NCBI GenBank assembly: GCA_022508365.1
Contig: JAFLVH010000012.1
Location: 1 to 33,164, forward strand
Direction: 5' to 3'
DNA: 33,164 bases
DNA from: Clostridiales bacterium
Lineage (GTDB): Bacteria; Bacillota; Clostridia; Christensenellales; Pumilibacteraceae
Shown here: positions 3,181 to 29,571 of the stretch, piece after piece
Layout of the letters: each line of letters starts with the position of its first letter
How positions within the stretch are numbered: the first letter of the stretch is position 1
The notes under the pieces: generated by a model
What the model was told of the DNA's origin: nothing
Database searches by the model: none
Seen by the model: the letters and a program-made list of their open reading frames with translations, nothing else
Position numbers and translations under genes: made by a program

Positions 3181-5271
3181 TTATTTTGTCGTTTTTTTGG
3201 TCGAAGGTTTTTTAGCGGCCTTCTTTTCCGCAGGCTCCGCTTTTTTCTCTGCGGGCTTTGCTTTCTTTTCCGCCGGTTTCTCCGCGGCGGACTTTTTGGC
3301 GGCAGGCTTCTTTTCCGCAGCCGGCTTCTTTTCCGCAGCCGACTTTTTCGCCGCCTTCTTTTCCGCAGCAGGCTTTTCCTCGGCGGACTTTTTGGCGACA
3401 GGCTTCTTTTCGGCAGGCGCCTTAGCCTTTGTGTTAGGGCAATACAGCAATATGCCGCCCATGGGAGGGATGTCTATGCTGAGCGAATCTTCCTTGCCGT
3501 GGCTTGCTATTTTTTCGGTCTTGTACACCGTGCCGGACTGACTCCAGCGGAATATTTCGGTGCGCAATAGCTCGGTGTATTCGCCCTCGTGCGCGCCGAA
3601 GCGGTAGCCGTCGTGCGGCACCGGCGAGAAGTTGATTATGGCGAGCATGCGGTTTTCCTCGCTGTCGCGGCGCTCGTACACAAGAATATTCTGTTGGTAA
3701 TCGTCCGCCACAAGCCATTCAAAGCCCCTCCAATCGTAATCGATCTCGTGCATGGCGGGATAGTTTTTGTAAATGCCGTTGAGCACCGACACAAACTTTT
3801 GCAAATCCTTGTGGGCGGGATATTCGAGGATATTCCAGTCGAGCTCCTTGTTAAAGTTCCACTCGTTGAACTGGCCGAGCTCCGCGCCCATAAACAGCAG
3901 CTTTTTGCCGGGGTGCGACCACATGTACGTCAGGAAGTTTCTGACGCCGGCAAACTTCATGTCGTAGTCGCCGGGCATCTTGTTGATGAGCGAGCCCTTG
4001 CCGTACACCACCTCGTCGTGCGAAATGGGCAGAATAAAGTTTTCCGTGAACGCGTAAATCATGGAGAAGGTTATCGTGTTGTGGTGGTACTTGCGGAACA
4101 CCGGATCGACCTTTATGTAGGACAAAGTATCGTTCATCCAACCCATGTTCCACTTAAAGTTGAAACCAAGTCCGCCCATGTCCACAGGCCGCGACACGCC
4201 GCCCCATGCCGTGGATTCCTCCGCTATCATAAGCGCGTTGGGATATTTGGCAAATATCGCGGTGTTGAGCCTACGCAAAAAGTCCACCGCCTCGAGGTTT
4301 TCGTTGCCGCCGTAGATGTTGGGACGCCATTCGTATCTGCCGTAATCGAGATACAGCATGCTGGCCACCGCGTCCACGCGCAGGCCGTCTATATGGTACT
4401 TATCCAACCAGTAGAACGCGTTGCTGATAAGGAAGTTTCTGACCTCGTTTCTGCCGTAGTCAAAGCAACGCGTGCCCCATTCCTTGTGCTCCATCCGGAG
4501 AGGATCGCTGTGCTCATACAAGGGACCGCCGTCAAACTCGTACAGACCGTCGCCGTTTTTGGGGAAGTGCCCGGGCACCCAGTCCAGAATGACAGCTATG
4601 CCTACGGAGTGCATCTTGTCCACAAGATAGGCAAAGTCCTCGGGCGTGCCGTAGCGCGACGTAGGCGCGTAGTAGCCCGTCACCTGATAGCCCCACGACC
4701 CGTCAAACGGATATTCCGCAACGCCCATAAGCTCGAGATGAGTGTATCCCATTTCCTTGAGGTAATCGCTCATTTCGTCGGCGAACTTGCGGTAAGAGAA
4801 TGTGTTGCCGTCGGCGTATCTGCGCCAGGACGCAATGTGCGCCTCGTACACCGTCATGGGCGCGGAGTACGGATTTTTCTTGTTCTTAATGTACTCGCCG
4901 TCCGTCCATTTAAAGTCGTCTATGGTCACGACCTTGGCGTTGGTACCCTCAAAGGTTTCGCGGTGGAAGGCGAACGGATCGCACTTGTAAATGGGATAAG
5001 AGAATCCGTTTTCTATATAGAACTTGTAGTTATCGTAAAGCTTAACGCCGGAGACAGTGACCTCCCAAATGCCCGCCTCGGTGATCTTGGTCATGCGGTT
5101 AGCGTCTTTGTTCCAGCCGTTGAAGTCGCCCACGACCGAAATGGACGTGGCGCGCGTTGACCAAACGCGAAAAACGGCGGTGCCTGTCTTGGGATCGAAA
5201 TGACAGCCCATGTATTTGTATGCGTCAAATGCGTCCCCGTGATGGTATGCGTCAAGCATGTTGATATCCAT
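3181..5271 (-). CDS. glgB: 1,4-alpha-glucan branching enzyme with a histone-like Lys/Ala/Pro tail
   Basis: GH13 branching enzyme, which cuts alpha-1,4-glucan and rejoins it through alpha-1,6 links in the cytoplasm. It has 696 residues. A CBM48-type N-terminal domain (about 24-110, with GDFNGWN) precedes the catalytic barrel. Catalytic regions are DGLRVDAV (nucleophile Asp300), the acid/base Glu in AEEST (351-352) and ISHDEVV (His418, Asp419). The usual fold ends at about residue 614. Residues 615-696 are almost only Lys, Ala, Pro and Glu in AEKKPAAKKSA-type units, ending KKTTK. Such tails are known from histone H1-like bacterial proteins but are not a standard part of GlgB. The start has AGGAG six bases upstream and a strong promoter. 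It is the first gene of the glgB-glgA-glgP block. I see no clear terminator after it. Confidence 0.96.
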   Translation of the reverse strand: MDINMLDAYHHGDAFDAYKYMGCHFDPKTGTAVFRVWSTRATSISVVGDFNGWNKDANRMTKITEAGIWEVTVSGVKLYDNYKFYIENGFSYPIYKCDPFAFHRETFEGTNAKVVTIDDFKWTDGEYIKNKKNPYSAPMTVYEAHIASWRRYADGNTFSYRKFADEMSDYLKEMGYTHLELMGVAEYPFDGSWGYQVTGYYAPTSRYGTPEDFAYLVDKMHSVGIAVILDWVPGHFPKNGDGLYEFDGGPLYEHSDPLRMEHKEWGTRCFDYGRNEVRNFLISNAFYWLDKYHIDGLRVDAVASMLYLDYGRYEWRPNIYGGNENLEAVDFLRRLNTAIFAKYPNALMIAEESTAWGGVSRPVDMGGLGFNFKWNMGWMNDTLSYIKVDPVFRKYHHNTITFSMIYAFTENFILPISHDEVVYGKGSLINKMPGDYDMKFAGVRNFLTYMWSHPGKKLLFMGAELGQFNEWNFNKELDWNILEYPAHKDLQKFVSVLNGIYKNYPAMHEIDYDWRGFEWLVADDYQQNILVYERRDSEENRMLAIINFSPVPHDGYRFGAHEGEYTELLRTEIFRWSQSGTVYKTEKIASHGKEDSLSIDIPPMGGILLYCPNTKAKAPAEKKPVAKKSAEEKPAAEKKAAKKSAAEKKPAAEKKPAAKKSAAEKPAEKKAKPAEKKAEPAEKKAAKKPSTKKTTK
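3184..3429 (-). repeat. Degenerate coding repeat: basic tail of GlgB
   Basis: This is the stretch that encodes GlgB residues 615-696. The plus strand shows recurrent TTCTTTTCCGC(A/G)GC(A/C) units of about 12-36 bases, corresponding to AEKKPAA and AKKSAAEKP. The frame stays open to the stop and the composition is purely Lys/Ala/Pro/Glu, which argues for a selected tail and not a frameshift artefact. Such tracts can change length between strains. Confidence 0.8.
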
Positions 5272-7760: not shown

Positions 7761-8156
7761 ATGGAAACAAAAAACGGCGCGACGCGCGACACGGTTTACG
7801 AATATGCGGAAAATGAATACGGCTCGCTCCCCGAACACCTGTGGACGACGTTTCCGCTGTATTCGGTTTTTAGGCGAGCCGATAACAAAAAATGGTATGC
7901 CATTGTCATGAACATACAGGGACGCAAGCTTGGCCTTGACAGTGACGAATACGTGGACATTGTAGACGTAAAGTGCGACCCGTTTGAAAAAGACGAGCTT
8001 TTATGTAAACCCGGATTTTTGCCTGCATACCACCTCAGCCGCAAAACCTGGATAACCGTGCTTTTGGACGGAACAGTGGACAGTGACACACTTTTCGATT
8101 TGATTGACAAAAGCTATCTATTGGCAAGCGGAAGGAAGAACGGAGTTAAGAGTTAA
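7761..8156 (+). CDS. MmcQ/YjbR family protein, probably translated from a leaderless mRNA
   Basis: Small soluble protein of the MmcQ/YjbR (double-wing DNA-binding-like) family; the cellular role is not established. From the ATG at 7761 it has 131 residues, near the family's ~115-130. Recognisable blocks are EYAENEYGSLPEHLW at the N-terminus, KKWYAIVMNI in the middle and KPGFLPAYHLSRKTWITVLLDG, ending in SYLLAS. In-frame ATGs at 7653 and 7743 were not chosen: 7653 lies inside the divergent thiT promoter, 7743 lies between the -35 and -10 of this gene's own promoter, and both are upstream of the predicted start of transcription. No Shine-Dalgarno precedes 7761. The last residues (NGVKS) and the stop come from a GAGTTAAGAGTTAAG repeat unit. 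Confidence 0.85.
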   Translation: METKNGATRDTVYEYAENEYGSLPEHLWTTFPLYSVFRRADNKKWYAIVMNIQGRKLGLDSDEYVDIVDVKCDPFEKDELLCKPGFLPAYHLSRKTWITVLLDGTVDSDTLFDLIDKSYLLASGRKNGVKS

Positions 8157-8356
8157 GAGTGTAGAGTTAAGAGTTATAAATAAAGATGAGATTCTTCGCT
8201 TCGCTCAGAATGACAAAACATGCTCTAATCTTTAAAGTTTGTTTGTCCTACGAAGCAACCGAAGGTTATTCTGAACAAGCGCGGAGCGCGCCGTAAAGAA
8301 TCTCAACCTTAATGCCGCGAAGCGGCCATATTATTCATTCTGAATTCTCTTAATTC
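8142..8356. repeat. Intergenic element with inverted repeat-unit ends (copy B)
   Basis: It fills the gap between convergent mmcQ and parA and overlaps both stop codons. The left end is GGAGTTAAGAGTTAAGAG with further units to 8175; the right end read on the minus strand is GAATTAAGAGAATTCAGAATG. Inside, GAGATTCTT (8188-8196) and AAGAATCTC (8296-8304) are perfect inverted arms. The left half holds GATTCTTCGCTTCGCTCAGA followed by ATGAC; the right half (8243-8305) recurs at 28505-28568. Confidence 0.7.
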
Positions 8357-9162
8357 TTTTTCTTTAGTGCGGAAAGGTTTTTTATCGGCTCAAACTTGTC
8401 GCGGTTGCGGTTTAGCACTTCCTCGGCGAGGTTTTTGTACGCAATGCCGCCGGCAGACGTCGGGTCGAACTGGCTGATAGGCATGCCGAAGGACGGCGCC
8501 TCGGCAAGTCTGACGCTTCTCGGTATTCTTGTCGTAAACGCCTTTTTGCCGAAGTAGTGGGTTATCTCCTCCGCAACCGAGTTTACGAGGTTGGTGCGCG
8601 AAGAGAACATAGTCACAACCACGCCCTCTATCTCCAAGGACGGATTGAGGATTTTTTTGGCTAGCTTTATCGTGTTCATGAGCTGACTCAAGCCCTCCAA
8701 AGCAAAGTATTCGCCCTGCATGGGAATGAGTATGCTGTCCGCAGCCGTCAATGCGTTTAATGTTAAAAGTCCTATAAACGGCGGACAGTCTATAAATATG
8801 TAATCGTAGTTGTTCTTTATAGGCGCAATCGCGCGCTTAAGCGAGCTTTCGCGTTTGTCAAGGCTTACAAGCTCCGCCTCCGCACCGGCAAGGTCTATGT
8901 TGGACGGAATTATATCCAGCCGCTCCACTCCGGTATGCAATATCGCGTCCTCGGCGTTGCAGTCGCCTATGATAAGACTGTACACCGAGTTTTTCACCTT
9001 GTGCTTTTCCACGCCGAGTCCGCTCGAGGCGTTGCCCTGCGGATCGTTGTCTATAACAAGCACTCTTTTTCCGAACGCGGCAAAATATGCCGCAAGGTTT
9101 ACGCATGTGGTGGTCTTGCCCACGCCGCCCTTTTGATTTGCTATTGCAATAGTTTTCGCCAT
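8350..9162 (-). CDS. parA: ParA/Soj-type chromosome partitioning ATPase
   Basis: P-loop ATPase that in known systems binds DNA non-specifically as an ATP dimer and is released by ParB. It has 270 residues, the usual length for Soj. The deviant Walker A is KGGVGKTTT (residues 11-19) with the signature lysine, followed by VLVIDNDPQGNAS, the Walker B FIDCPP, and the family block IPRSVRLAEAPSFGMPI. The ribosome binding site is AGAGGATAAC before the ATG at 9162. No parB follows it (the next stretch holds a repeat element and convergent mmcQ) and none precedes it (plsC), unlike the usual soj-spo0J pair. The C-terminal KKKN and stop lie in an AATTAAGAG repeat unit. The family is certain; which cargo it positions is unknown. 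Confidence 0.93.
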   Translation of the reverse strand: MAKTIAIANQKGGVGKTTTCVNLAAYFAAFGKRVLVIDNDPQGNASSGLGVEKHKVKNSVYSLIIGDCNAEDAILHTGVERLDIIPSNIDLAGAEAELVSLDKRESSLKRAIAPIKNNYDYIFIDCPPFIGLLTLNALTAADSILIPMQGEYFALEGLSQLMNTIKLAKKILNPSLEIEGVVVTMFSSRTNLVNSVAEEITHYFGKKAFTTRIPRSVRLAEAPSFGMPISQFDPTSAGGIAYKNLAEEVLNRNRDKFEPIKNLSALKKKN

Positions 9163-9247: not shown

Positions 9248-9283
9248 TTCATTCTGCATTCTGCATTTTGCATTCTGCATTCT
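9248..9283 (-). repeat. Repeat units at the plsC 3' end
   Basis: On the minus strand AGAATGCAGAATGCAAAATG is followed by CAGAATGCAGAATGAAA, five tandem units of the GAATGCA type. They encode the last residues (NAECKMQNAE) and the TGA stop of plsC. Confidence 0.75.
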
Positions 9284-18666: not shown

Positions 18667-18695
18667 TTGACAAAAGCCGCAGAATAATGTATTAT
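18667..18695 (+). promoter_or_regulatory. Promoter of the Gln/Ala-rich scaffold-like gene
   Basis: TTGACA (18667-18672) with TATTAT (18690-18695) at 17-bp spacing; a second TATAAT (18695-18700) lies five bases further. The 5' UTR would be about 28 bases, with only a weak GGGA site before the ATG. It is divergent from the lipoprotein promoter, 65 bases apart. Confidence 0.75.
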
Positions 18696-18729: not shown

Positions 18730-20754
18730 ATGGCACACAACAAAGACAACAACGCCGATCTCGGCGATCAAATCATAATGGGTACGGCGTCGCCTTACAC
18801 GTTGGAGGCGGAAATTGTCATTCCCGACAGTCCGACCGAACCCGTAACCGAACCGAGTACGGACGATCAGCCAATCGTCATTTTGGCTAAGCCGTTAAGA
18901 GACGCCACCGCCTTTATGTCCGAAGACGAGGACGAAATGGACGATGATCTCGACGACCTCGATGACGAGCCGCAAGTAACTGCGGATGCGCCCAATCCGG
19001 ACGACCTGCTTGCCGCCATGCTAAACGATCAAGACCCCGTTATTATTCCCGAACAACCGCAAGCTCAACCCGAGCAGACCATAATCATGGGCGAACCCGA
19101 ACCTCAGCCTCAGAGTGACGATTTGGACGCTCAGCTCGCCGCCATGCTCGGCGAGGATAAGCAAGAGCAAGAAAATTCCGCTAACGACGATCTGGACGCT
19201 CAGCTCGCCGCCATGCTTAACGAAACCGAACAGCCCGTTGTTACGCCCGAGCCCGAGCAAACCGAGCAGCCTATAATCATGGGCGAGCCCGAACAGGTAA
19301 TTACCCCCGAGCCCGAGCAAGCGGAACAGCCTATAATCATGGGCGAACCGGAACAAGTAATTACGCCCGAGCCCGAGCAAGCGGAACAGCCTATTATAAT
19401 GGCAGAACCGGAACAAGTAATTACGCCCGAGCCCGAGCAAACAGAACAACCCATAATCATGGGCGAGCCCGAACCGACCGTAATTATCCCCGAACAAGTA
19501 ATCACCCCCGAACCCGAGCAACCGATAGATACACCCGAACAGCCGGTACAGCAAGCCCAGCCCTCGCCGGAGAGCGAAGCCGCACGCGCCATGATGGAGC
19601 AAGCGCAGGCTATGATGGAGCAAGCGCGCCGGACGCAGGAAATGATGCAACAGGCGCAGGCCGCGCAAATGCAGGCGCAGCAAGCGGCTATGCTGCAGCA
19701 GGAGCAGGCGCGACAGGCGCAGGCACAACACAGCGAGGACAAAGCGGCGGACGCGGCGCGGTCCATGATGCAGCAGGCGCAAGCCATGATGCAGCAGATG
19801 CAGGAACAGCAGGCGCAGCTTCAGGCACAGCAGGCTGCACAAGCCGCAGCACAGCAAGCCGCACAAATGCAGGCGCAACAAGCGGCACGTGTAGATAACT
19901 CGGAGGCGGAAGCCGCACGCGCCATGATGCAACAGGCGCAACGGATGATGGAGCAGATGCAGGCGCAGCAGGCACAGCTTCAGGCGCAAGCCGCGCAAAT
20001 GCAGGCGCAACAAGCGACGCAACCCGGCCGCGCGGAAAGCTCGGAATCGGCAGCCGCTCGCGCCATGATGGAACAGGCGCAGCGAATGATGGAGCAGGCG
20101 CAGCTTCAAGCGCAGCAGGCACAACAGGCGGCGCAAATCCAGCAGGCGGCGCAAATACATGCGGCGCAACTGCGACAGACGCCCGGCTACGTCAACGATC
20201 CGTACGCAATGAAAGAGGTAGACAGGCTCAAAAACGAGCTGGACGGCATGCGCGAGCTGGTGAACAAACTGACATTTGCCATGTCGCAGCAGGCAAACGG
20301 AAATCACCAAGCGCCGCAGCCTCAACAACAGCAGTACAATCCCGAGCGCGATCAATACAGACGGCTTGAAACCGAGCTAGACCGCATGCGCCGTGACATT
20401 TTGGAAAAGGACCTGCGCGACCGCGAAAAGGAGCTCGAGCGCAAGCAGAAGGAAGCGGAAAACGTGCGCGACATAAGACCGGAAATGATGCAAATGTCCG
20501 ATCCGCGCGGAGTAATGCCTATGCAGCCGCCCTTCCAAAACGTCGGCGACGAATATATCCCTATTGCCAACGGCGTGTACTACTCCACCAAAGACAGGCA
20601 GGTATACGTTATGACCCCTGCGGGCGCTGCAAGCGGCCCGGCGTTGGAGGCGCCCAAGCCGGCGGCAAAGAGACCCGTGGCAAGGCGCCCCGTAAGACCG
20701 AGAGGCAGAAGACGCGCACCCTTGCGCCGCCCCGGTCGCCGTCCTAGAAGGTAG
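18730..20754 (+). CDS. Repeat-rich Gln/Ala/Met coiled-coil protein with acidic N-terminus and Arg-rich tail; function unknown
   Basis: A 674-residue protein I do not recognise. Residues 1-280 are acidic and Pro/Glu-rich, with two repeated short motifs: IIMG-type (at 15, 118, 182, 202, 222 as IIMA, and 242) and DDLxAxLAAML-type (91, 130 and 153). Three exact-period 20-residue units run over 181-240 (PIIMGEPEQVITPEPEQ). Residues 281-490 are Gln/Ala/Met, with four copies of an AARAMMxQAQxMMEQ block, predicted long coiled coil. A second charged coiled coil (about 495-585) follows, then a small region (600-632, YIPIANGVYYSTKDRQVYVM) and a basic tail (643-674) of Arg, Pro and Lys. There is no signal peptide or membrane segment, so it is cytoplasmic. 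The plan suggests a multivalent scaffold or nucleic-acid-binding polar organiser (inference). It is monocistronic with its own promoter and terminator. Confidence 0.85.
   Translation: MAHNKDNNADLGDQIIMGTASPYTLEAEIVIPDSPTEPVTEPSTDDQPIVILAKPLRDATAFMSEDEDEMDDDLDDLDDEPQVTADAPNPDDLLAAMLNDQDPVIIPEQPQAQPEQTIIMGEPEPQPQSDDLDAQLAAMLGEDKQEQENSANDDLDAQLAAMLNETEQPVVTPEPEQTEQPIIMGEPEQVITPEPEQAEQPIIMGEPEQVITPEPEQAEQPIIMAEPEQVITPEPEQTEQPIIMGEPEPTVIIPEQVITPEPEQPIDTPEQPVQQAQPSPESEAARAMMEQAQAMMEQARRTQEMMQQAQAAQMQAQQAAMLQQEQARQAQAQHSEDKAADAARSMMQQAQAMMQQMQEQQAQLQAQQAAQAAAQQAAQMQAQQAARVDNSEAEAARAMMQQAQRMMEQMQAQQAQLQAQAAQMQAQQATQPGRAESSESAAARAMMEQAQRMMEQAQLQAQQAQQAAQIQQAAQIHAAQLRQTPGYVNDPYAMKEVDRLKNELDGMRELVNKLTFAMSQQANGNHQAPQPQQQQYNPERDQYRRLETELDRMRRDILEKDLRDREKELERKQKEAENVRDIRPEMMQMSDPRGVMPMQPPFQNVGDEYIPIANGVYYSTKDRQVYVMTPAGAASGPALEAPKPAAKRPVARRPVRPRGRRRAPLRRPGRRPRR
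19270..19479 (+). repeat. 60-base tandem coding repeat
   Basis: Three full units and a partial fourth, with a period of exactly 60 bases, encode PIIM(G/A)EPEQVITPEPEQ(A/T)EQ. The copies differ mainly at synonymous positions and at one Gly/Ala and one Ala/Thr site, so the protein sequence has been kept while the DNA drifted. This fits selection on the peptide and not a fresh slippage product. Confidence 0.9.
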
Positions 20755-20756
20755 CA

Positions 20757-20908
20757 AATTAAGAATTAAGTATTAAAGGTGACTCAAACCGAGCCACCTT
20801 TTTCTTATTTATTATATATTTTTCTTATTTATTATCCAAATTCTTAAATCTATCCTTAATGGCGGCTTCCCGCCCTCACTCTGAACTCTTAACTCTGAAC
20901 TCTTAATT
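20757..20908. repeat. Intergenic element with inverted repeat-unit ends (copy C)
   Basis: The left end AATTAAGAATTAAG (20757-20770) begins three bases after the stop of the plus-strand scaffold gene. The right end (20877-20908), read on the minus strand, begins AATTAAGAGTTCAGAGTTAA and continues GAGTTCAG; it contains the TAA stop of the convergent DUF4353 gene. A hairpin terminator and two TTTTTCTTATTTATTAT-type tracts lie between. Confidence 0.7.
20776..20806 (+). terminator. Terminator of the scaffold-like gene
   Basis: AAGGTGACTC (20776-20785) pairs with GAGCCACCTT (20791-20800) with one mismatch and a 5-base loop, followed by a T-tract (TTTTTCTTATTT). It lies inside intergenic element C. 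Confidence 0.75.
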
Positions 20909-25989: not shown

Positions 25990-26367
25990 CTATAATTTGG
26001 GCATGTCTGTAAAGTGCAAAAATGCTTTTAAAAGCGCTAACAATATTTCGGCACCTGCCGCCGCTCTCAAACAATAGCTTACATATATATTAAAATGTAT
26101 TAATAGCACAATGCATAGAACCATACCTATGACAGTAATAATATTAAACGCGAAAGTAACTACTATTGTTATTTTATTAACTGCACCCCTCAATCCCAAC
26201 AAAAAAATTTTCTTGTAAAACGGGTAGCTTAGATACGGATATACTTTTTTATTCTTTTTGTAATGCTTACGCCCTTCCGCCTTAATATAATACAAAATTG
26301 GCAGAGAAAACATAGCCCATGCTATGGGGAAAACAAACAACACTCCAATCAGTGTACCCTTATCCAT
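25990..26367 (-). CDS. Small membrane protein of unknown function
   Basis: 125 residues, not recognised. Hydrophobic segments lie near 7-27 (VLFVFPIAWAMFSLPILYYI), 68-90 (ITIVVTFAFNIITVIGMVLCI) and 98-118. Between the first two is a very basic stretch (KAEGRKHYKKNKK), so that loop is probably cytosolic. AAGGAG sits five bases before the ATG. It begins 9 bases after the stop of the next gene upstream and is the last member of the AT-rich cluster. Confidence 0.7.
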   Translation of the reverse strand: MDKGTLIGVLFVFPIAWAMFSLPILYYIKAEGRKHYKKNKKVYPYLSYPFYKKIFLLGLRGAVNKITIVVTFAFNIITVIGMVLCIVLLIHFNIYVSYCLRAAAGAEILLALLKAFLHFTDMPKL

Positions 26368-26376
26368 AAATTCTCC

Positions 26377-26844
26377 TTAATGATATATTTCTGCTTTATT
26401 TAAATTTTGCAAAAACATACTATGAAAACTTTCACTATCTGCGCTAAATGTTTTTATTGCCTCGGCAACATCCCTGTAGGTTTTAATGCTTAACGAAAGA
26501 ATATCGCTCTTTAGCTCTATGACATACACGGTAATATATCTTGTAAGCTTACAAGATATTTGCACCGATTGGATATCACTCCAAGACAAAAACTGTTTTT
26601 GTTTATGTGCAGTCGGTACAACAATACCGTCATAACTAATCTTACATCTCAATAATTTCGCGGTGATAATGAATCCGGTAATAAATAGGATAGCGACAAT
26701 GCCAACCGATAAGATTGCCCACAGCGGAAGAGAACCGATAATAAAGCCTATTGTGAGTAATGACATAGCTGTTCCCATTGCGCCAAGAGCATTTAAAAGC
26801 GGATTATTTTTAGAAAAATATCTGTAAGTTTTGTTTTTACTCAT
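26377..26844 (-). CDS. Membrane protein with a bacterial PH-like cytosolic domain
   Basis: 155 residues from the ATG at 26844, which has AGGAAA ahead of it; an ATG 24 bases further upstream has no site. Two membrane segments form a hairpin (about 26-44 and 47-68: LLTIGFIIGSLPLWAIL, VGIVAILFITGFII). The remaining ~85 residues are beta-rich with ISYDGIVVP and LSWSDIQSVQI, resembling the bPH/YcxB-type domains that follow such hairpins, ending in a helix. The start overlaps the preceding gene by 8 bases, showing tight packing. It has the same plan as the protein at 27947-28465. The function is unknown. Confidence 0.7.
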   Translation of the reverse strand: MSKNKTYRYFSKNNPLLNALGAMGTAMSLLTIGFIIGSLPLWAILSVGIVAILFITGFIITAKLLRCKISYDGIVVPTAHKQKQFLSWSDIQSVQISCKLTRYITVYVIELKSDILSLSIKTYRDVAEAIKTFSADSESFHSMFLQNLNKAEIYH

Positions 26845-27139
26845 TATTTTTCCTGTCTTCGTTAGCATCTTTGGATTGGCTATAAGCTTTTTTTATCAAT
26901 ATGCACAATAAGCACACGGCTATTGTTACAATAATGCCGATACACCAATATCCAGCAGCGATTTTTAAATTAAAAACATATTCTGTCGCTATTTTGCCGC
27001 TTCCGTATCCGTTTGACACGCCAAGCGTACCGGCTGTATTGGGCTGATAGCCCAAAAGAACACCGACAACGATTGTCAACGTTAGCGAAATTAATGTCAT
27101 TGCCATTACGAACCATTTGCTTGTGAGAATTTTTGCCAT
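26837..27139 (-). CDS. Small two-segment membrane protein of unknown function
   Basis: 100 residues from the ATG at 27139, chosen because AGGAGGT lies six bases upstream; a longer reading has no such site and would overlap the preceding gene. Hydrophobic segments lie at about 11-30 (VMAMTLISLTLTIVVGVLLG) and 60-82 (GYWCIGIIVTIAVCLLCILI). The loop between them carries a Gly/Asn-rich stretch (TLGVSNGYGSGK). The C-terminus is charged (SKDANEDRKNNE). No family was recognised. Confidence 0.65.
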   Translation of the reverse strand: MAKILTSKWFVMAMTLISLTLTIVVGVLLGYQPNTAGTLGVSNGYGSGKIATEYVFNLKIAAGYWCIGIIVTIAVCLLCILIKKAYSQSKDANEDRKNNE

Positions 27140-27189
27140 TTTTAACCTCCTATATGGTACAAATAAACAAATGATGTTATAAGTAACAA

Positions 27190-27555
27190 TTAAAGAACAA
27201 CAGCCAGTAAAGCAAGCAATGCTACAATTATATTGCCTACCCCCATTAAGCCCCATCGGAATTTCATAAAGAAATGTTTAGCCATATATTCCGGTGCTAC
27301 ATAACCGTGATCAGATTTTTCCATACTTTCAACCGTATATTTATTATAAATCATTTTAAAAACTGCCTTAGGGAATAAGACCATAAATAGACCGAAACAA
27401 AATAAGGTGGCTGATAGAGCGTACAAAGCCGGCATCCAATCAGCTGCTGAAGTAATAAATCTATCCCCATGAATAAACATTACAGCACTTGCACCTGCAA
27501 AGGCACAACATAATAATATAGTAATTAATATTTTAACTGCTTTTTTGAGATTCAT
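27190..27555 (-). CDS. Small membrane protein of unknown function
   Basis: 121 residues with hydrophobic segments near 7-27 (VKILITILLCCAFAGASAVMF), 42-62 (MPALYALSATLFCFGLFMVLF) and 102-121 (GLMGVGNIIVALLALLAVVL). A conserved-looking loop (YTVESMEKSDHGYVAPEYMAKHF) separates the last two. GGAG lies upstream at a long 13-base spacing, so translation may be weak. No family was recognised; it shares composition and packing with its neighbours. Confidence 0.65.
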   Translation of the reverse strand: MNLKKAVKILITILLCCAFAGASAVMFIHGDRFITSAADWMPALYALSATLFCFGLFMVLFPKAVFKMIYNKYTVESMEKSDHGYVAPEYMAKHFFMKFRWGLMGVGNIIVALLALLAVVL

Positions 27556-27593
27556 AAAAGTGAATTTACTCCGCTAAATTTAAATTTTTAGTT

Positions 27594-27917
27594 CTAATCT
27601 TTTACGCCATATTCTATTGTAATAAACTTAATTCTATCCCACATCTGTTTTAAAGTAAATTTCCCTTTTCGTTTCATATCGAAAAGTTTTAAATCTTCGT
27701 CAAACTCTTTTAAAAACGAAAAATGTTCTGAATCATTTGATAATTTAACAGAAATATAATTGATATGAACAGTTGATTTACCATTGTCAATAATGTCTGT
27801 TGCTCTTTCAATCACGCAATTTTTATAATGAGCATATTCCTCAATTAGAAATACTGCTTTTACTATTTTACAGTTATTAATTCCATCTATAAATTGTTGA
27901 TATGATAAAGGTTCCAA
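27594..27917 (-). CDS. Small soluble protein of unknown function
   Basis: 107 residues, with a TTG start codon at 27917 supported by GAGGAG about eight bases upstream. No membrane segment or signal. The N-terminal half (YQQFIDGINNCKIVKAVFLIEE) looks helical then beta; the C-terminal part is charged (FLKEFDEDLKLFDMKRKGKF). It is the only soluble member of the AT-rich cluster. The size and setting recall immunity proteins of toxin loci, but no toxin is present and I recognise no family. Confidence 0.6.
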   Translation of the reverse strand: MEPLSYQQFIDGINNCKIVKAVFLIEEYAHYKNCVIERATDIIDNGKSTVHINYISVKLSNDSEHFSFLKEFDEDLKLFDMKRKGKFTLKQMWDRIKFITIEYGVKD

Positions 27918-27946
27918 TATATTACTCCTCTAAATTGAAATTTATA

Positions 27947-28465
27947 TTAATATGAGTACTTAGTATTGTGCTCAAATAAAGCTTGCTTGAGTTTTTTAGA
28001 CACTAGCAAATCGTCGGTGAAATTTGTTCGGTTGGAATCTAAAACACAAATTTTTTGTTTATAATACAATGATATAATTTGTAAACTTTCAATGGACAAA
28101 AGAACATAAAACTTTTGCCTTACCACATTCTTTGCTTGCTTGCCTTTCAAATACTCTGTGTCGAAGAGTAAATAATATGATATGTATATTGATCTGCCTC
28201 CTATGGGATAAGCAGTAATTCTAATGTCTTCCCATTTTATTTCTTTCTTTCCGCATCTCACAACTTTGTCATTATATAGTATCGGGGTAAAATATCCTAT
28301 GAATGCCATTGAAATAAAAAATAGTGCGAGAACCCCAACTAATACCCAACCATAAAATTTGTCAGGTTCTATACAACTACAAACAACAGATACAATTAAG
28401 AGTATCGAAAAAAGAATAATGGTGGAAATGGTAACTTTGTTTTTAAACTTAAATAATCTTTTCAT
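27947..28465 (-). CDS. Membrane protein with a PH-like cytosolic domain
   Basis: 172 residues. Two hydrophobic segments form a hairpin (about 13-33 ISTIILFSILLIVSVVCSCI and 39-58 GWVLVGVLALFFISMAFIG). A beta-rich domain follows with LYNDKVVRCGKKEIKWEDIRI, ending in a helix (LLVSKKLKQALFEH). It has the same two-segment plus WxDI layout as the product at 26377-26844, though the sequences are distant. GGTGA precedes the ATG. It is the first gene of the AT-rich cluster in the direction of transcription. The function is unknown. Confidence 0.65.
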   Translation of the reverse strand: MKRLFKFKNKVTISTIILFSILLIVSVVCSCIEPDKFYGWVLVGVLALFFISMAFIGYFTPILYNDKVVRCGKKEIKWEDIRITAYPIGGRSIYISYYLLFDTEYLKGKQAKNVVRQKFYVLLSIESLQIISLYYKQKICVLDSNRTNFTDDLLVSKKLKQALFEHNTKYSY

Positions 28466-28504: not shown

Positions 28505-28609
28505 TTGTCCTACGAAACAACCGAAGGTTATTCCGAACAAGCGCGACAACGCGCCGTGAATAATCTCACTCTTAACTCTGAACTCATTCTGCATTCTTAA
28601 TTCTGCATT
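28505..28609 (-). repeat. Solo half of the palindromic element plus repeat units at the BSH-like 3' end
   Basis: 28505-28568 matches 8243-8305 closely (TTGTCCTACGAA, CAACCGAAGGTTATTC, GAACAAGCGCG, GCGCCGT and AATCTCA shared). It is joined to mixed units CTCTTAACTCTGAACTCATT and CTGCATTCTTAATTCTGCATT. The minus-strand reading of the latter encodes the final MQN and the TAA stop of the choloylglycine-hydrolase gene. Confidence 0.75.
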
Positions 28610-29571
28610 AGAATATTCGGGTCTTTAATCATGGGAAAGCGGAAAAGTGAGGTGCCGTCCAAGTTGACCTTGTTCATATCCACCGCGCTTATCTGTCGGT
28701 TGTCGTAGCTTGTGTAATATAACACGCCCTTTGTAACGTCAAAACAAGTAGTGTAAATGGTTACTTCGCAGTGCCCGTTGTCCATAACGCAACAGCCGCG
28801 CGTCTGGTCCACCGCACCCAGTATGTGAAAGAACTGACTGACGCTTTGCTCGCAGTTGTCGTAAACAGGCGAATTGAGCGCGGTAAACGCCGCGCGCACA
28901 AACCGCGAGGAGGAAGACAAATCGCCCGGCAAGCCCAACGCGCCCATGCCGCGGCTGTACTTGTCAAAGCTTATCTTGTCGGAAAAGCCCGCCTTAGGCG
29001 GCTTGGGGCTTAGGCTCATGTAGTTATTAAGCCCAAACAGCTGCACGGGAAATGGCGGATTGTTGGTAAGTACGCCGACGTGATTATCATACACGTGCAT
29101 GCCGCTATTGTCGCATTCCACAACTATCGCCTCGTCCTTGTCCGCAATCATCCAGTGCAACTCGGACGCAGGCAATTGCTCGTTAAACGGCACGTTTGTT
29201 ATATTGATGCGGTCAAGCAATTTTTTTGCGTCCTCCACCGTCGCGCATTGGCACAAAATCCACGGGATAAACTCGAAGGTGGCAATGTTGTCCTTGCCGC
29301 ACACCGAATTCCCGAACTTGGCGTTGCCAACAAAGTTAAGCCCCGCCATGGCAAGCCCTTTGTCGTTGCATGCGTCGTAGTACAGCGGAAACCCGTCCAC
29401 AACGTACGCCACGCCCATGATTGCGTTGTGCGCAGGGACGGCGCCCATTTCCTTAAAGCACAGCTTGCGCCTACGCGGCGTTATTACAATCTCCTCCTTG
29501 TACGAACAGTCATTGTCGAGCGTGCGCCCGAAATAAAAATCGTTTGAATTATACTTTAATGCAGTGCACAT
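28597..29571 (-). CDS. Choloylglycine hydrolase family enzyme (bile salt hydrolase / penicillin V acylase-like)
   Basis: N-terminal-nucleophile amidase, 324 residues, close to known bile salt hydrolases. After Met removal the nucleophile would be Cys2 (MCTALKY). Other active-site positions of the family are present: Arg16 in FGRTLD, Asp19, Asn in AGLNFVGNA, Asn in LTNNPPF and Arg in SSSSRFVRAAF. The GLNFxGxA block leans towards bile salt hydrolases, but substrate cannot be decided by eye. There is no signal peptide, so it is cytoplasmic. GGGAG precedes the ATG. It is probably a single-gene unit downstream of a hairpin. The final MQN and the stop are encoded by a repeat unit. If active on conjugated bile salts, it marks intestinal life. 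Confidence 0.88.
   Translation of the reverse strand: MCTALKYNSNDFYFGRTLDNDCSYKEEIVITPRRRKLCFKEMGAVPAHNAIMGVAYVVDGFPLYYDACNDKGLAMAGLNFVGNAKFGNSVCGKDNIATFEFIPWILCQCATVEDAKKLLDRINITNVPFNEQLPASELHWMIADKDEAIVVECDNSGMHVYDNHVGVLTNNPPFPVQLFGLNNYMSLSPKPPKAGFSDKISFDKYSRGMGALGLPGDLSSSSRFVRAAFTALNSPVYDNCEQSVSQFFHILGAVDQTRGCCVMDNGHCEVTIYTTCFDVTKGVLYYTSYDNRQISAVDMNKVNLDGTSLFRFPMIKDPNILMQN

Follow-up and report, generated by a model that had tools for sequence, protein, structure and literature searches.

What is the product of the long open reading frame (ORF) at positions 18730 to 20754 of this contig, and what might it do in the cell? The window, by which we mean the whole analysed stretch of 33,164 nucleotides, corresponds to an entire contig (C4) from a draft genome of 1.67 Mb, which comprises 81 contigs and is 91.8% complete. 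A first-pass annotation had described the ORF as a cytoplasmic, multivalent scaffold-like protein of no recognisable family, with an acidic motif array, a long coiled coil and an Arg-rich tail, resembling polar hubs in general plan. We find that the ORF is a real, previously undescribed protein and that this anatomy holds overall, but needed correction, since the one long coiled coil is better described as separate helices and four of the six IIMG-type motif copies are not independent of one another. The interpretation as a scaffold likewise retains the lack of a family, the recurring kinds of motif, the cytoplasmic character and the basic tail, and is weakened by a motif copy number that varies.

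18730 to 20754, + strand: gene of the scaffold-like protein, 674 amino acids, ATG start; dN/dS well below 1 where dS is usable

A protein without a recognisable family

The 674-residue protein matched no Pfam or NCBIfam family. Among 12 orthologs scanned, Pfam returned three unrelated families and PHROGs two unrelated, weakly matching ones, each in only 1 of the 12 members. Candidate relatives in the PDB, namely LSD1 and ALIX with a profile query (E 0.017–0.04) and klebicin C with the whole protein (E 0.0019), were read as coiled-coil or low-complexity noise and set aside. The C-terminal 184 residues gave zero matches against 50,697 phage records, and of 26 stretches of viral contigs that fitted the search pattern none was confirmed as a relative. 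The earlier statement that no family can be recognised is therefore borne out, and the kinship with a phage protein, a secreted protein or one of cell division that would have spoken against a new scaffold did not appear, the DivIVA family of Pfam included. No title or abstract shown for the literature on Anaerocaecibacter, Pumilibacter and Pumilibacteraceae concerned the scaffold-like protein.

Distribution and relatives

The protein was matched in all 20 genomes of the genus, the window's own included; in one of these (G012) the N-terminal part alone is visible, at a contig end, and in another (G011) the C-terminal part is found twice, one copy perhaps stemming from the 7% contamination of that genome. 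A search of 101 genomes (the window's own and 100 relatives, E up to 0.001) matched 22, namely these 20, one genome of another genus (G028, E 8.9e-4) and G094, which was dropped as its locus (L021) looks like that of a repeat protein whose N terminus is hydrophobic, and was judged unrelated. A collection of named genomes yielded 18 loci, including that of Anaerocaecibacter muris CLA-AA-M11, which is placed by NCBI in Pumilibacteraceae, Clostridia. We infer the genus to be that of A. muris; the carriers of the protein form a small bacterial group related to a mouse-gut isolate.

A profile made from genus proteins only (A2) and searched against 74 genomes of the family found a third genus (G033, E 1.8e-5; G045, E 5.6e-4), while its matches in G020, in G057 and at a second place in G015 were dropped. 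The relatives in G028, G033 and G045 read as whole proteins, alike in general plan and far diverged. A further profile (A3) had L022, L070 and L071 among its members, so that the strong scores of these three follow by construction, and independent support for the distant relatives comes from the first search for G028 and from the A2 scores for the other two genomes. With A3, nothing certain emerged beyond G028, G033 and G045; one weak match, in G042 (E 0.19), was kept, and the others (E 0.02 to 0.6) were dropped, L117 and L118 looking unrelated. When A3 was run against 396 genomes of the order (142 genera sampled), 10 were matched, all in the same three genera, and no relative outside one bacterial family was found.

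The G042 protein is a syntenic relative, which gave short matches to L022 in a single comparison (E 9e-6 and 2e-5) and shares both neighbours, of which one ORF is transposase-like (46% identical) and the other of the DUF421 kind (66% identical). At 207 residues it has no motif array, helical modules or Arg tail, and the hub plan is therefore not kept throughout the lineage. Within the genus, all 12 full-length proteins aligned have the same order of parts, with 1 to 4 helical modules each.

Architecture of the protein

18730 to 18822, + strand: conserved N-terminal peptide, consensus MANxKDNNADLGNQTIEGTEPPIALDAEIV in an alignment (A1) of 12 full-length genus proteins
18730 to 19575, + strand: acidic arm, residues 1-282, net charge -67, predicted disordered
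19000 to 19218, + strand: three DDL(DAQ)LAAML-type motifs, residues 91, 130 and 153, with short model helices at 133-140 and 151-163
19241 to 19474, + strand: 60-bp tandem array with four PIIM[GA] motifs, 3.9 copies, 87% matches
19567 to 20172, + strand: four predicted Met/Ala/Gln helical modules, residues 280-329, 339-384, 391-429 and 438-481 (AlphaFold2 model)
20200 to 20466, + strand: two predicted charged amphipathic helices, residues 491-522 and 538-579 (AlphaFold2 model and alignment), the slowest-changing part
20467 to 20502, + strand: conserved linker peptide VRDIRPEMMQMS, genus consensus DIRPEMVQMSD
20548 to 20616, + strand: predicted three-stranded beta unit, EYIPIANGVYYSTKDRQVYVMT region, 10-residue blocks with pLDDT 78 and 90
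20650 to 20751, + strand: Arg/Pro-rich tail, net +16; 14 Arg, 2 Lys and 8 Pro in the last 34 residues

The protein begins with a peptide of about 30 residues in which M1, G12, Q14, I16, T19 and P22 are invariant in the 12 genus proteins, and which opens an acidic arm whose predicted disorder is read from low AlphaFold2 confidence (pLDDT mostly under 50). The six IIMG-type motifs reported earlier are indeed there, at residues 15, 118, 182, 202, 222 (as IIMA) and 242, and the four from 182 to 242 lie inside the 60-bp tandem array, so these copies are not independent. The three DDLxAxLAAML-type motifs fared less evenly, two being exact DDLDAQLAAML (residues 130 and 153) and the third a shorter DDLLAAML (residue 91).

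Two motif classes, PIIM/PIVx and LDxQLxxML, recur genus-wide, and we compared their counts with 300 composition-preserving shuffles of each arm, using the patterns P-[IV]-[IVF]-[IVLMT] and LxxxLxxhh, which were picked post hoc from sequences already inspected. Nineteen of the 21 loci were covered, two truncated ones being omitted and three other 5′-truncated ones kept, with the arm ends of three distant relatives set by hand. In 15 of the 19 loci the first motif was more frequent than in any of the 300 shuffles, and in 14 the second was, in a test that ignores tandem duplication, which inflates single counts. In the remaining loci the count of the first motif was reached by 2 (L008), 1 (L014), 31 (L016) and 14 (L115) of the 300 shuffles; the second was weaker in L001, L006 and L022, had zero copies in L114 and L115, and in the window protein is present in 2 copies, a number reached by 1 of 300 shuffles. 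Both classes are carried by L022, which belongs to another genus. Perhaps the most telling comparison is between the repeat units that carry the first motif, which differ by species: about 20 residues in the window, QPIILGDMPDE in L006, EQPIITDAFA in L013 and EEPVIVTAPADN in L114. That the motif returns from differing units is the best indication of selection on the motif itself. Across the genus, and partly beyond it, the kind of motif is conserved, while copy number varies widely. A failure of the copies to be conserved between related genomes had been named as a point against the scaffold reading, and it is half of what we see, in that the numbers differ and the kinds are kept.

The next part of the protein holds four AAR[AS]MM blocks, at residues 284, 342, 395 and 442, which had been taken to form a long coiled coil. 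The four blocks stand, but AlphaFold2 predicts four separate helices with breaks between them, in a model with a mean pLDDT of 55.6 (66.5 in the other; shallow alignment). The module pattern (D/N)xx(E/D)AA(R/K)xMM(E/Q)QA(Q/R/K)xMM(E/Q)QAQ, in which several positions are fixed by the search itself, occurs in 44 copies in 18 of the 21 loci, with 1 to 4 per protein, and the distant relatives L022, L114 and L115 are without it. We considered and dropped copper or silver binding by these modules, for which MxxM spacing would be expected and in which the spacing is MM-x5-MM. The predicted helices suggest self-association.

Directly before the tail lies the predicted beta unit, which is recognisable in two other genera. 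Among the first eight Foldseek rows, four (3le4, 2ysi, 2dwv, 4e5r) represent either WW domains or the dimerisation domain of DGCR8, which is linked with a WW domain. The likeness consists of the three predicted strands and of an arm in the same protein that is proline-rich. A WW domain as such is not supported: the Foldseek E values of 2.4–5.9 are not significant, Pfam returned nothing for 6 of 6 pieces (E up to 10), and Trp, two of which mark a WW domain, is absent in 18 genus proteins. One paper announces in its title a WW-like motif of a bacterial enzyme (PMC12331936).

The tail had been singled out as basic, and it proves exceptionally so. Its net charge is +9 to +17 in all 21 loci, at least +10 in 20 and +9 in the remaining one. 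Among 309 ORFs (mechanically called, non-overlapping, at least 120 residues, without X), 16 reach a net charge of at least +10 in the last 34 residues and all 16 are members of the scaffold family, which is over-represented in this set because the stretches were picked around its gene, and of which members with X, cut by contig ends or lying under a longer opposite-strand ORF are missing or low. One charge lower, at +9, three unrelated ORFs score the same as the next member of the family. The tail sequence drifts with its charge kept, which would fit any polyanion.

Selection, expression and location

Against the nearest relative, whose gene is in two contig pieces that were analysed apart, dN/dS was lowest in the charged helices (0.03), followed by the beta core (0.06), the modules (0.08), the tail (0.21) and the arm (0.24). 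Wherever dS was usable, the ratio ran from 0.01 to 0.33, and for the tail from 0.21 to 0.29; several comparisons had saturated dS and gave no ratio. The parts with usable dS are under purifying selection, as judged from these ratios.

18667 to 18695, + strand: sigma-70/A-type promoter-like site TTGACA-17-TATTAT, 11/12 consensus matches

Upstream of the gene is a promoter-like site, one of 5 found in the scanned stretch against 1.5 expected. Counted by eye, 14 of 16 upstream regions have an exact TTGACA in the same aligned position, among them all three from the other two genera; of the exceptions, L018 has TTGACT and L011 none. Judged from this site, expression would be steady and probably high.

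The cytoplasmic character proposed earlier is also supported. The largest 19-residue Kyte-Doolittle mean among the 21 proteins is 1.35, and the N-terminal 15-residue maximum is 1.14, on a hydropathy scale that is uninformative on the N terminus of 5′-truncated loci. By hydropathy, the strongly hydrophobic segment of a secreted or membrane protein is absent in 21 of 21 proteins, as is Cys by composition, and these two absences together make a cytoplasmic place likely.

A tentative mechanism and its alternatives

We propose the following mechanism, to which we give about an even chance: the protein would be a multivalent scaffold of the cytoplasm that associates with itself, recruits clients through its arm and docks on a polyanion through its tail. 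Made steadily and probably in abundance, it would assemble with itself, the Met/Ala/Gln modules and the charged helices keeping the molecules together. The acidic, presumably disordered arm would show several copies of two kinds of motif, an extended strand-like P-[IV]-[IV]-h and an amphipathic helix LDxQLxxML, each of which may make many weak contacts with a client or with a partner scaffold, as the repeated expansion of the motifs leads us to infer. The Arg/Pro tail could then dock the assembly on nucleoid DNA, RNA, polyphosphate or acidic lipid, and the N-terminal peptide and the beta unit may provide two further, single-copy binding surfaces.

Such a plan displays individual features of known organisers. 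PopZ, the polar hub of Caulobacter, combines an acidic, proline-rich disordered part with oligomerising helices and binds clients multivalently. Set beside this description, the scaffold-like protein shares a predicted disordered acidic part, predicted helices and perhaps a multivalent plan, and by this analogy may be read as a polar hub; it differs in having no Pfam match and in the repeated motifs, Met modules, beta unit and Arg tail that are its own. The APR cytadherence proteins of Mycoplasma (HMW1, HMW3 and P65) form a terminal organelle scaffold and carry an acidic proline-rich domain, short repeats and a coiled coil. Here the organisms are unrelated, the Pfam match is lacking and the APR proteins are not known to have an Arg tail.

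8350 to 9162, - strand: ParA/Soj-type ATPase, PF13614 1.1e-69, a possible partner gene

Most of the remaining probability is shared by nucleic-acid binding, a ParA adaptor and other explanations. The protein may be nucleoid- or RNA-associated, with the tail as its main working part and the arm and helices serving only to space, cluster or shield it. The 14 Arg and 8 Pro of the last 34 residues recall histone-H1- or protamine-like tails, and both the charge that sets the family apart in the ORF survey and the tail's dN/dS favour such a role. We nevertheless find it rather unlikely, since the slowest parts are the charged helices and the beta core, not the tail, since the arm's repeated motifs are left unexplained, and since a drifting sequence of constant charge fits any polyanion. 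A more deflationary account, that this is a low-complexity protein which evolves fast, matters little and owes its growing repeats to slippage, draws on the 60-bp array, the widely differing copy numbers and the short form in G042. It seems very improbable in view of the purifying selection in parts with usable dS, the presence in 20 of 20 genus genomes, the growth of the same motif kind from different units and the conserved promoter-like site.

A further reading makes the protein an adaptor or anchor of ParA/Soj, in a role like that of PopZ, HubP or McdB, which would help to place the chromosome or other cargo. The ATPase gene lies 9.6 kb from the scaffold-like gene in the window, and in 12 of 20 genus genomes the only PF13614 match (E up to 1e-40) is 7.4–11.3 kb away on the same contig, with the gene pointing away, a count in which G004, G005 and G009 have only the gene's N-terminal piece on that contig. 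The intervening genes vary between species, and in the window's genome ParB, the only PF02195 match, is apart from ParA/Soj on another contig (C29) with other neighbours. On the other side, the gap between the two genes widens to 27 and 33 kb in two genus genomes, and in six others they lie on different contigs (at least 28 kb apart in G017). The same separation onto different contigs is seen in 4 of 4 genomes from the other genera, of which G045 has its gene about 3 kb from a contig end, so that a link is possible there. The N terminus of ParB also has the usual ParA-binding look, its motif being presumably of the ParA-binding type, and gene order conserved in one genus is weak evidence. McdB, a partner of a ParA-type ATPase, is described as having a disordered end, a central coiled coil, helical self-association and charge-split ends (PMC10554743). 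The scaffold-like protein shows a general likeness to this, with helices between an arm of net -67 and a tail of +16, but it is acidic at the N terminus and basic at the C terminus, has no adjacent ParA/McdA gene and no Pfam match. Overall we give the ParA link low weight and consider the adaptor role quite unlikely.

Very unlikely, too, is a structural role of the cytoskeletal or polar type, in which the protein would replace or assist DivIVA in cell shaping. DivIVA is a cytoplasmic coiled-coil organiser of Firmicutes, and its cut-off is passed by none of the 20 genus genomes as against 35 among the 54 from elsewhere in the family. The scaffold-like protein, however, has no PF05103 match, and a separate DivIVA-like ORF is found in the same genome. 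Of four genus loci with weak DivIVA matches, inspected by eye, L124 and L125 are ATP synthase b subunit-like and L122 and L123 DivIVA-like (compared with L126), so DivIVA has not simply been lost from the two genomes concerned and its replacement is unsupported; moreover, all four g10 and g15 genomes pass the cut-off yet have a relative of the scaffold-like protein. The two divergent ORFs (L122:6227-6817 and L123:6043-6648), which fall under the cut-off, seem to lack the MDFN..KKGY start of L126:5826-6587.

Returning to the self-associating scaffold, we also entertain, with a slim chance of being right, a bolder version of it. The protein would be a Pumilibacteraceae hub made of new parts, with regrowing motifs, Met modules, a WW-like unit that reads the proline-rich arm of its own or a neighbouring molecule and so polymerises, and an Arg tail that tethers the assembly to the nucleoid beside ParA. 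If true, a PopZ-type hub would have evolved independently in Clostridia. What is known of bacterial hubs and condensate scaffolds comes largely from a few model organisms, and a cultured member (A. muris) together with clear motif classes would make this a tractable case of an independently evolved scaffold. The related species also offer a natural experiment, since they differ in repeat unit and in the number of motifs and keep the motif kind.

Gene neighbourhood

In the window a lipoprotein-like ORF lies divergent to the gene, and after it comes a CBM48/alpha-amylase ORF. These two (clusters c1 and c0) are the commonest neighbours, each in 12 of 21 clustered loci, and we draw no functional link from them to an operon partner. 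The directly upstream ORF is on the same strand in six loci (L042, L044, L046, L047, L114 and L115), and it cannot therefore be claimed that the gene is always transcribed alone. In L046 (11409-16344, genome G014) the gene is followed by a same-strand ORF with a sub-threshold HSP70 match and by a helicase-like ORF. In both g10 genomes a conserved transposase-like ORF lies divergent to the distant relative (L049:11951-12670 and L116:7545-8411), that of L049 with a weak Y1_Tnp match.

Several other features of the window merit mention. Short 7- and 14-bp tandem repeats lie near gene ends at 8143-8176, 9250-9283 and 20878-20906, and six small ORFs stand in a row at 25990-28465 (- strand), five of which were scanned without a match (three against Pfam, two against NCBIfam). 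The glycogen-branching enzyme at 3181-5271 (- strand) ends in about 80 residues of Lys/Ala/Pro/Glu repeats, an end that we take to resemble a histone H1 tail; a similar one is found at L048:2329-4416. A bile salt hydrolase at 28597-29571 (- strand), matched by NF038245 with 442 bits (cut-off 350), recurs in 6 of the 21 clustered loci.
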